Below are positions 33,067 through 36,330 of a DNA stretch of 39,188 nucleotides, piece by piece; position 1 is the stretch's first letter, and the number at the start of each line of letters is the position of its first letter. The translations under genes and the position numbers were made by a program. The notes under the pieces were generated by a model, which was not told where the DNA came from, searched no databases, and saw nothing but the letters and a program-made list of their open reading frames with translations. Source of the stretch: an uncultured Acinetobacter sp. (lineage in GTDB: Bacteria > Cyanobacteriota > Vampirovibrionia > Gastranaerophilales > Gastranaerophilaceae); contig CAMORE010000002.1 of the NCBI GenBank assembly GCA_946623365.1, forward strand, positions 1-39,188, written 5' to 3'.

Positions 33067-33101
33067 AAAAAAATATCATCTAAACGGATGATATTTTTTT
33101 T
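33067..33101 (+). terminator. Terminator after speE
   Basis: aaaaatatcatc-taaacg-gatgatattttttttt. Confidence 0.9.
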
Positions 33102-33158
33102 TAATAGTCAAGAACGTTAATAATATACCGATATTATTAAAGGAAGGACGGTATCAGA

Positions 33159-34853
33159 TTGTTTAATACGATGAACAATATTCGCCCACGTTATCCACAG
33201 CAGACACAGGGCTATCAAACACAACAGAGCGGAACCGATAAAGACGGTCACAATCAGCACGCTCAAGACCAGCAGCAGCAACGACAAGAAGTTATTGCAA
33301 GAGGCAGAGCAGAAGACCACCAAAATCAAGGCCAGCAAACATCGCCGCTTCGTCAGCCCGTATATTCACCTGCCGCAAATGCTTATCCTCAGGCATTTCC
33401 GAACCAACGTCAAACATATACCGTCAGTAACCCGCAAATAACTCATTTGAACGGACCATCTCCAATTCAATATCAGACTTTGCAAAGCAGTTATCAACCG
33501 ATAAATCAACCTGCTCATTCCACAGCCGGTATGACAAGAAGCGGAAGAAGCAATAAAGTTAATATTGCACAAATTCTAAAAGATTTTAGAAATACTATTA
33601 AAGCTATTGCTACCCCGCAAGATGTTGAAGAACAAGTTAACAGATATTTGCAGATAGTTAATGAGCAAGTACATGCTGAACATCCGCAAGTCAATCTGAT
33701 CCAAAGCAATTTAAAGATTGCTGCATCACTTTTAGACAGATATATTTCAGAAACATTAAATAAAGAGTCAAAAGTGGTACAGAACTGGTTAGATGCGTTG
33801 TTCTTGCAAAGAATAGACTACGGATATAATGAAGATGACATTAATCCCAGCTTCTTGGTAAAATTCCCCGATAACGACAAAAAGGAAAATTCTGAAGCTC
33901 CGCAGCAAGATATTGAAGATTCTCAGCAAAATATTCAAACGGAACAGCAACAGCAATTGCCGGTTGAAACCGAATACAGTGCTGCTGAGGCCGAGCAGGA
34001 ACAAGGTATAAACATTGAACCTGAAGAACTGACTCTGGAAGAAGAATTTACTCAGGCTCAAAAGACAATATCTCAAAAGCCTAACATAACGATAATTCCG
34101 CAAGATACCAGATTAAAATCCCTTTTTGTGGAAGCAAAAAAACATGCTTTTAATAACAATCCGCAAAAAGCAATGGCAATGTTTAAAGAAGCATTTTCAA
34201 GAGCAGGAGAACTTAATGATAATGAAACTCAATCCAGAATTTGCTTAGAGATTGGTAAAATTTATGATGATAATGACCATTTTGTTCAGGCACTAAACAG
34301 TTACAATAAGTCATTACAATATACAACAGATGTAAATGTCAAATCCAGAGCTCATTATTCAATGGCTCAAATTTACGATGATGTTAATCAAATCGAGCCT
34401 GCTATGAAACATTATTTCACGTCAATATCATATGCAGGAAAGTCTGATGACTTAATCGGACAATCAGATTCGCTTACAAGAATGGCAAATATTTTAACCG
34501 ATAAATATAATGAAGAAGCTTTTGAATATTATGAAACAGCAAGAAAACTTATTGACCAAACAAGTGATTTAACAATGAAAGGGTATGTATTATCCAATAC
34601 AGCCGATGCATGTGTTCAATTCAGAAAAAAAGACAAAGCTCTTAAATATTATGCAGAAGCTGTAAAGAATTATGAAAAAACAAATTCTAATGAAGACATT
34701 GCAATAAATTATAAAGCAGCAGCAGAATTAATGATAAATTTTAACAGCCTTAATAAAGCAAAATCTCTTTTAAAGAAAGCTTTAATACATGCTGTTAAAA
34801 CAACAAATGAAGACTTAATCTCTGAAATTAACATGCTTTTATCGTCATTATAA
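33159..34853 (+). CDS. TPR protein with Q-rich low-complexity N-terminus
   Basis: QDQQQQRQE..., IEDSQQNIQTEQQQQLP; C-terminal TPR repeats (IYDDNDHFVQALNSYNKSLQYTTDVNVKSRAHYSMAQIYDDVNQIEPAMKHY). TTG start at 33159 or ATG at 33171. Confidence 0.85.
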   Translation: MFNTMNNIRPRYPQQTQGYQTQQSGTDKDGHNQHAQDQQQQRQEVIARGRAEDHQNQGQQTSPLRQPVYSPAANAYPQAFPNQRQTYTVSNPQITHLNGPSPIQYQTLQSSYQPINQPAHSTAGMTRSGRSNKVNIAQILKDFRNTIKAIATPQDVEEQVNRYLQIVNEQVHAEHPQVNLIQSNLKIAASLLDRYISETLNKESKVVQNWLDALFLQRIDYGYNEDDINPSFLVKFPDNDKKENSEAPQQDIEDSQQNIQTEQQQQLPVETEYSAAEAEQEQGINIEPEELTLEEEFTQAQKTISQKPNITIIPQDTRLKSLFVEAKKHAFNNNPQKAMAMFKEAFSRAGELNDNETQSRICLEIGKIYDDNDHFVQALNSYNKSLQYTTDVNVKSRAHYSMAQIYDDVNQIEPAMKHYFTSISYAGKSDDLIGQSDSLTRMANILTDKYNEEAFEYYETARKLIDQTSDLTMKGYVLSNTADACVQFRKKDKALKYYAEAVKNYEKTNSNEDIAINYKAAAELMINFNSLNKAKSLLKKALIHAVKTTNEDLISEINMLLSSL

Positions 34854-34974: not shown

Positions 34975-35093
34975 GAAGTGTATATGGAAATAAAAAAGCT
35001 TTTTCAAAATTATCTTTTATGAAGAATCGGAAATAACAATATTTACAGGAATTTACTATTTATTGCATAATACCATTAATTGTATTCCTCTAT

Positions 35094-35122
35094 TTGTATG
35101 ATATTTATATTCTAATTATAAA
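35094..35122 (+). promoter_or_regulatory. Predicted promoter of the candidate sRNA
   Basis: TTGTAT (35094-35099), 17-bp spacer, TATAAA (35117-35122). Confidence 0.5.
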
Positions 35123-35128
35123 GATTTT

Positions 35129-35227
35129 TAATAAAGTGTCGATATTATTGGTATGGAAAGCCGAAAAGGTTTTTCATACCTCCTCCCCAAGTCTGGTAGC
35201 CGTTCTCAAATGAAACGGCTTTTTTTT
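35129..35227 (+). ncRNA. Candidate trans-acting sRNA (about 100 nt)
   Basis: Hairpin ggtatggaaagcc-gaaaa-ggtttttcatacc (35150-35180), unpaired tcctccccaagtctggt, then terminator agccgtt-ctcaaatga-aacggctttttttt (35198-35227). Confidence 0.65.
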
Positions 35228-36323
35228 ATGCAACACTAGACTGTATCGTGTTATAAAACTCTTCTACTTTCATAGCCCAGCCTGAATTTTTGGAAGTCTC
35301 AGCCGCAGGACAGTATTTTGCATTTACTTGATATAATTTGGTTAAATGAGTATTTTCTTTTCCCGGATTATTTACGTAATTTTCTTTCAGTAATCGTGCT
35401 AATTCCATAATGCACTCATCAGGAGAGTTAAATCTTCTCCAACGTCCTGAATATGAAGCCTTTTTAGGCTTTTCTATATTTACTACATTATAATAGGGTC
35501 GTGAATTACCTGTAGTACCATATGATGTTTCAATGCCGGATATTGCAAGAAGTATCGCCGCATTAATTCCATATTTTTCTTGAGCTCTTATAAAGACATC
35601 GCCTTTACCTTTTAATACACTATTGGGATATCTGCTGATAAACTTATTCAAATCCGCAGCAGTTCCGTTGAATTTTGTCGTAATGTCTCTTGAGTAATTC
35701 CCATATATTTCCCGCATTTCATTATCGCTCATCTGAGTCCAAAGTTTTACTGTTGAACTTTTTTTGCCGATTTTTTCATTATTATTAGAAGCAGACTCGC
35801 TTAGTTTGACCTTTTTTAACTCTGAAGAATCGTTTTTCTTTTCCTCTTTAACAGCTTCAGCATCTGTTACTGACGGTTCGTATGAATATGGCATTGTTTG
35901 AATAGGATTATAAAAACCTGAAAACGGCATATCAAACATTTGATATGTCATTGGAAATACTGAAGTATTCGGTGATCTATATTGAGAATTCTTCATATTT
36001 GATAAATATTGTTTTGTTCTTTTATTTAGTTCTGATTCCGGATTAAAAACATTATCCCAAATACTTTTTGTGACATTTGAAAAATCTATAGCAGGATAAT
36101 CAGGATTCCCAAAATCTGTAAAAATCGGAGGCACCGTCATAGAATTATTCATTTGTACGTTAGAAAAAATCGTTGGAAACGGATTGGCAAAAGTTCCAAA
36201 ATCTACCCTGCCCGAATTTGAATAGGCGCCAAAGCATCCAAATCCTCCAAAGTAAGGATTATTTGCCATCATCCCGAAAGCCAAACCGCCTATAAAATTA
36301 TCTATAAAATTATTTATTCCCAT
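35226..36323 (-). CDS. Glucosaminidase-domain (FlgJ/Bax-like) peptidoglycan hydrolase candidate with low-complexity N-terminus
   Basis: FISRYPNSVLKGKGDVFIRAQEKYGINAAILLAISGIETSYGTTGNSRPYYNVVNIEK; G/N/F-rich N-terminus; ATG at 36323. Confidence 0.85.
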   Translation of the reverse strand: MGINNFIDNFIGGLAFGMMANNPYFGGFGCFGAYSNSGRVDFGTFANPFPTIFSNVQMNNSMTVPPIFTDFGNPDYPAIDFSNVTKSIWDNVFNPESELNKRTKQYLSNMKNSQYRSPNTSVFPMTYQMFDMPFSGFYNPIQTMPYSYEPSVTDAEAVKEEKKNDSSELKKVKLSESASNNNEKIGKKSSTVKLWTQMSDNEMREIYGNYSRDITTKFNGTAADLNKFISRYPNSVLKGKGDVFIRAQEKYGINAAILLAISGIETSYGTTGNSRPYYNVVNIEKPKKASYSGRWRRFNSPDECIMELARLLKENYVNNPGKENTHLTKLYQVNAKYCPAAETSKNSGWAMKVEEFYNTIQSSVA

Positions 36324-36330
36324 CAATTCT

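Follow-up and report, generated by a model that had tools for sequence, protein, structure and literature searches.

The window, by which we mean the whole stretch of 39,188 nucleotides that was analysed, carries a compact unit on its + strand between the gene for a TPR-repeat protein and the convergent gene for a glucosaminidase-domain protein (Table 1). The preliminary description of this DNA had read a 13-bp stem with two G-U pairs and a GAAAA loop, a 17-nt unpaired stretch and a 7-bp terminator stem with a T tract. Sequence reading and folding both bear out the first hairpin, and the T tract is indeed confined to the + side. The 17-nt stretch is exposed, although a weak CCA/UGG pairing of 3 bp forms within it in the minimum-energy fold, and the terminator hairpin is present but has a 9-bp stem interrupted by one bulged C. 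The 103-nt stretch at 35128-35230 has a folding energy of -29.8 kcal/mol; its 200 shuffles average -17.1 (z -4.56), and none of them folded as well. The anatomy of the RNA, a 13-bp hairpin followed by exposed UCCUCCCC and a terminator, is real and lies far beyond chance.

Table 1. Features of the RNA gene and its surroundings, in window coordinates.
Feature	Position	Strand	Basis or remark
TPR-repeat protein gene, upstream neighbour (context)	33159-34853	+	Pfam TPR_12
Palindrome of the AATMTCMTMC-N4-GKAKGAKATT type	35082-35109	.	Just upstream of promoter; putative regulator site
RNA gene (whole unit)	35119-35227	+	Sequence reading: promoter, hairpin, exposed stretch, terminator
Sigma-28 -35 element TAAAGATT	35119-35126	+	Matches TAAAG-N15-YCGATA
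Sigma-28 -10 element GTCGATAT (consensus GCCGATAA)	35138-35145	+	Exact 11-nt spacer after -35
Predicted transcript, about 78 nt	35150-35227	+	Inferred from positions of -10 element and terminator
Stem-loop 1, 13 bp with two G-U pairs	35150-35180	+	Sequence reading and fold
Stem 1 5' arm GGTATGGAAAGCC	35150-35162	+	Sequence
Stem 1 loop GAAAA	35163-35167	+	Sequence
Stem 1 3' arm GGTTTTTCATACC	35168-35180	+	Sequence
Nearly invariant core ACCUCCUCCCCAAGUCUGGUAGCC	35178-35201	+	Alignment of 69 diverse copies
CCUCCUCCC motif	35179-35187	+	Motif of the alpha-r14 / NfeR1 RNAs; first two bases close stem 1 here
Exposed anti-Shine-Dalgarno stretch UCCUCCCCAAGUCUGGU	35181-35197	+	Sequence and fold
Terminator hairpin	35198-35220	+	Fold; paired arm combinations across distinct terminators
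Terminator T tract, 8 T	35220-35227	+	Sequence
Glucosaminidase-domain protein gene, convergent downstream neighbour (context)	35226-36326	-	Pfam PF01832

Distribution and selection on structure

The window comes from a genome of the Gastranaerophilales, an almost uncultured order of gut bacteria. A blastn-type search covered 34 genomes of the same genus, all of which have the element, and also found it in most other families of the order. When species genomes were searched for the core, at least 120 stretches were returned, and almost all of the informatively titled matches were to Candidatus Gastranaerophilales or Melainabacteria, non-photosynthetic relatives of the cyanobacteria from guts and groundwater. 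One locus titled 'uncultured Clostridia bacterium' (L093) carries a typical RNA and is probably a mislabelled bin. In Melainabacteria GWF2_37_15, three copies of the RNA lie in tandem with a 362-bp spacing (L049:1350-2330; also L098), of which the last two are nearly identical.

We built a covariance model (R1) from the core and terminator only of 69 diverse copies. This model identified the RNA in 233 of 241 Gastranaerophilales genomes and in 47 of 48 genera, usually once per genome in the window's family and one to six times in other families; at the window locus it matched positions 35135-35228 (E 3.5e-21). The eight genomes of the order that gave no convincing score in this search may represent assembly gaps or true losses. 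Among 294 genomes of the phylum searched with the model, the RNA was absent outside the order, where the best score (E 0.009) is noise, and the sister families f8 and f9 were likewise without it.

As the preliminary description had proposed for a genuine small RNA, the stems vary across the order yet stay paired, while the UCCUCCCC stretch is invariant. Stem 1 occurs as 64 distinct arm pairs among 114 sequences with its pairing kept. For comparison we used chimaeras, in which the 5' half from one species is joined to a dissimilar 3' half from another. Over these 114 relatives the mean stem-1 energy was -10.9 kcal/mol for the own arms, against -4.4 for chimaeras and -3.6 for shuffles, and the own pairing was better than the chimaeric one in 109 cases. 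Among 88 distinct terminators, the stem occurs in 23 different paired combinations of its arms, and its fifth pair alternates between UA and CG, so that the variation is compensating. MAFFT and RNAalifold run on all types misaligned stem 1 and recovered only four terminator pairs; automatic alignment is blind to the covariation in stem 1 because the lengths of this stem and of the linker vary.

Between the stems, the core ACCUCCUCCCC(A/G)AGUCU(A/G)GU(A/U)GCC is nearly invariant across the order, and most columns at 35178-35201 are invariant or at least 90% identical in the alignment of the 69 diverse copies. By these comparative criteria, the RNA structure is under selection and its core is held invariant. 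The comparative evidence supports the central reading of the preliminary description, a gene for a small RNA whose two stem-loops flank an exposed stretch resembling an anti-Shine-Dalgarno sequence, and we regard it as almost certain that this is a genuine RNA gene. Judged on its sequences, it is a real, order-wide small-RNA family that is previously undescribed as far as could be checked: in the open literature searched, no regulatory RNA is described for the Gastranaerophilales, and searching for the motif brought up no account of this RNA. As it is near-universal in the order, the RNA can be sought in existing gut metatranscriptomes.

Promoter type and the link to FliA

The promoter first proposed for the RNA, TTGTAT-17-TATAAA, was not borne out. 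Its letters are present, but sigma-70-like sites are not enriched over shuffles, either at the locus or across copies. Six such sites were found in the region against 6.0 expected, in a consensus scan that omits TTGTAT-17-TATAAA, and sites with at least 9 of 12 matches numbered 41 across the 148 copies against 58 in shuffles. Moreover, the 'TATAAA' overlaps a conserved sigma-28 -35 element, TAAAGATT.

A sigma-28 promoter of the correct sequence and spacing lies at the 5' end of the RNA. The textbook consensus for this sigma factor is TAAAGTTT-N11-GCCGATAA. Within 90 nt upstream of the copies, the pattern TAAAG-N14..16-NCG(A/T) occurs in 108 of 148 cases, against 1.24 in shuffles (maximum 5), and on the opposite strand it occurs upstream of a single copy. 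The RNA's own genome contains 38 sites of the form TAAAG-N15-YCGATA and six for the reversed control. These exact-pattern counts constitute the test; the position-specific promoter frequencies, whose alignment was anchored on the motif, serve for description only. Among 30 sites inspected in the own genome, one precedes FliD and one precedes flagellin, both confirmed by Pfam. The sigma-28 motif can be used to predict the flagellar regulon of these genomes. Sites also precede EF-hand proteins (L215, L218), and many family-unassigned proteins lie behind others, forming a large set that is possibly exported with the flagellar programme (L193-L222).

FliA itself is encoded in the own genome (G000:C21:13945-14607; score 234.5 bits, cut-off 189.6) and exceeds the curated cut-off in 51 of 57 relatives; FlhA is over its cut-off in 52 of the 57. 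As FliA also occurs in the RNA-less sister family f9 and in the eight genomes of the order that gave no convincing hit to the RNA, the link between RNA and FliA runs one way. The RNA shares its promoter type with fliD and flagellin, as read from the sequences, and is very likely to depend on sigma-28. It would thereby mark FliA activity, and hence motility. As a separate observation, most genomes, including the own genome (C13, C60) and most relatives, encode two proteins of the FlhA type, of which one exceeds the flagellar cut-off and the other falls below it. This suggests that there is a second export apparatus, flagellum-like or type III-like.

The position of the sigma-28 -10 element places the transcription start at the base of stem 1. 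Four bases separate GTCGATAT from the start of the 13-bp hairpin, and the predicted 5' end lies at the base of stem 1 to within about 3 nt. The predicted transcript therefore starts about 20 nt later than previously proposed and measures about 78 nt instead of roughly 100 nt.

The palindrome upstream of the promoter recurs as well. Its conserved half GKAKGAKATT is found upstream of 52 of the 148 copies, against 0.9 in shuffles. Further palindrome sites lie at 33068-33099 in the window, at about 15003-15030 in L229 and at L242:2139-2166. About 440 kb of the own genome contain four distinct strong sites, three of which adjoin sigma-28-type promoters. The palindrome may be an operator for a regulator of the sigma-28 regulon. 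Beside the second palindrome of the window, a sigma-28-like promoter, TCAAGAAC-N11-ACCGATAT, occupies 33108-33134 just upstream of the TPR gene (33159), which may thus be part of the flagellar regulon.

Proposed action and alternative readings

The exposed CCUCCUCCCC is complementary to ribosome-binding sites of the GGAGG/GGGGAGG type. We propose that the RNA would be switched on under FliA together with the late flagellar genes. Stem-loop 1 would cap its 5' end and the terminator its 3' end, holding ACCUCCUCCCC(A/G)AGUCU exposed between them, and the exposed segment would pair with GGAGG or GGGGAGG type Shine-Dalgarno regions of trans-encoded mRNAs. Such pairing would block translation initiation and repress a set of mRNAs without Hfq. 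As a whole, the best explanation, and a likely one, is an RNA of about 78 nt that depends on FliA, probably acts independently of Hfq and blocks Shine-Dalgarno sequences; anti-Shine-Dalgarno repression as such we consider reasonably probable. From this we infer Hfq-independent repression of an mRNA set, coupled to the late flagellar programme, by which the RNA would probably tune protein synthesis as cells become motile. Hfq was not found in 23 genomes of the order, with a model that also misses the cyanobacterial-type Hfq in a Synechococcus control, so that a diverged Hfq may be present.

We looked for targets in sampled stretches of 20 genomes by searching for AGACTTGGGGAGGAGG with up to three mismatches, and found no conserved mRNA with extended complementarity. 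The near-matches were the RNA itself, diverged paralogues, sites within coding sequences and a few scattered sites, and no gene recurred. Ranking translation-start regions by duplex energy revealed no flagellar gene group with outstanding predicted pairing in the sampled regions. The best conserved group by this measure has nine members with GGGGAG-type sites and looks DNA-methyltransferase-like by eye; it also scores somewhat with the reversed seed and is a weak lead.

Simple blocking of Shine-Dalgarno sequences gives no explanation for the conservation of AGUCU(A/G)GU beyond the anti-Shine-Dalgarno part. The exposed core could instead bind a protein or the 30S subunit, or mimic the 16S rRNA 3' tail (ACCUCCU), so that the RNA would act by titration. 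This would suit a core that is far more constant than a usual multi-target seed, as well as the failure to find a conserved extended mRNA complement in the sampled regions or Hfq in the 23 genomes. Against it, no candidate binding protein was identified, and diverged paralogues in deeper families behave as expected of RNAs with different pairing partners. In these paralogues (L266, L268, L269 and L271) the sigma-28-like promoter is retained, and so is the core CCUCCUCCCC (CUCCUCCCC in one), while changed bases follow it (AAAUCU, AAACCU, AAGCCU, AUAUCU), which suggests related RNAs with different preferences. We consider titration unlikely. Equally unlikely, in our view, is an order-wide flagellar checkpoint, in which the RNA, on FliA release, would broadly affect translation through mimicry of the 16S tail or by covering many Shine-Dalgarno sequences. 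If true, such a checkpoint RNA would link motility, or export of the flagellar type, to a general shift in protein synthesis in hosts without detected Hfq.

Another reading is that the RNA is a highly diverged orthologue of Yfr1, a small RNA of photosynthetic cyanobacteria, retained in their non-photosynthetic relatives. Yfr1 has two stem-loops with 16-20 unpaired nt between them, and its core ACUCCUCACAC is ultraconserved and lies in the unpaired section (PMC2190773). The RNA described here comes from the same phylum and has a comparable layout, with a 5' stem, an exposed C/U-rich stretch of about 18 nt and a 3' terminator, and ACUCCUCACAC resembles ACCUCCUCCCC (PMC2190773). The resemblance to Yfr1 (RF01116) noted in the preliminary description therefore stands for the layout, but does not extend to recognition by the Yfr1 model. 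At its gathering score of 38 bits, the Rfam model found nothing over the cut-off in five Gastranaerophilales genomes or in the sister families tested, whereas it matched three oxygenic cyanobacteria strongly (E 1e-10 to 1e-13). Furthermore, ACUCCUCACAC is absent here, the core being ACCUCCUCCCC(A/G)AGUCU in nearly all aligned copies; no intermediate was found in the class, and a likeness in layout is common among unrelated small RNAs. We rejected membership of the Yfr1 family on the model result and the different core, and regard diverged orthology as very unlikely.

The gene neighbourhoods bear on a cis-acting role. The 490 proteins encoded next to the 148 copies form 254 clusters, and no neighbour accompanies more than 28 copies; of the window's two neighbours, the glucosaminidase gene is shared by 28 copies and the TPR gene by two. 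Downstream, the nearest gene faces the RNA convergently in 90 cases and has the same orientation in 47. A role in cis, either as terminator or attenuator for the TPR gene upstream or as leader for the gene downstream, would fit the RNA's strong terminator and its position between two genes, but its neighbours differ between genomes, the downstream gene is mostly convergent, and the RNA has its own promoter and an invariant core, which makes this reading highly improbable. Many copies have an ATG in stem 1, but we give practically no credence to a small protein encoded from it, as the ATG falls in all three frames with respect to the core (58, 33 and 23 copies; it is missing from 34) and the stop positions vary. 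As neighbours change, the downstream gene is mostly convergent and no frame is constant, we rejected both a cis leader and a small protein and read the RNA as a free-standing gene of the trans-acting type.

Relation to known small RNAs

No Rfam 15 family matched at its gathering score, and the window yields only a partial tRNA, cut by its left end (positions 1-51). Hits to RprA, suhB and others below the Rfam thresholds were judged to be chance. The suhB/mmgR family (RF00519) is alike in that its alignment has a hairpin, an unpaired stretch containing CCUCCC and a terminator; membership was rejected at a score of 14.0 bits (E 2), where gathering requires 41.

Closest in motif are NfeR1 and the alpha-r14 ('cuckoo') RNAs of rhizobia, which carry CCUCCUCCC in unpaired regions while their stem sequences are highly variable; NfeR1 represses ntrB at its translation start (PMC10746234). 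NfeR1 differs in having three hairpins, each with the motif, in being controlled by LsrB and NtrC, and in belonging to a different phylum, whereas in the RNA described here a single motif lies between two stems and the promoter is of the sigma-28 type. It would represent an independent case of the CCUCCUCCC anti-Shine-Dalgarno design.

Parallels for the proposed control and action come from Campylobacter and E. coli. In Campylobacter, sigma-28-dependent RNAs act on flagellar genes (PMC4626219, PMC11187230), and in an E. coli reporter assay CjNC1/CjNC4 (CJnc10/CJnc170, FlmR), which depend on sigma-28, repressed the leaders of predicted targets without Hfq (PMC4626219). Like the RNA described here, CJnc230 (FlmE) has two hairpins and an exposed anti-Shine-Dalgarno (PMC11187230), but it depends on RpoN, is located downstream of flgE and makes use of CCUU. 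Compared by description, these RNAs have been reported from Campylobacter species only, whereas the one described here is order-wide. The E. coli RNAs UhpU, MotR, FliX and FlgO act on flagellar genes and are expressed under FliA control (PMC10578931), a control that we propose for this RNA as well. They are derived from UTRs and have been studied with Hfq, whereas the Gastranaerophilales RNA is free-standing and its hosts have no Hfq that we could find. The family would thus extend sigma-28-dependent RNAs to the cyanobacterial phylum, in hosts without detected Hfq.
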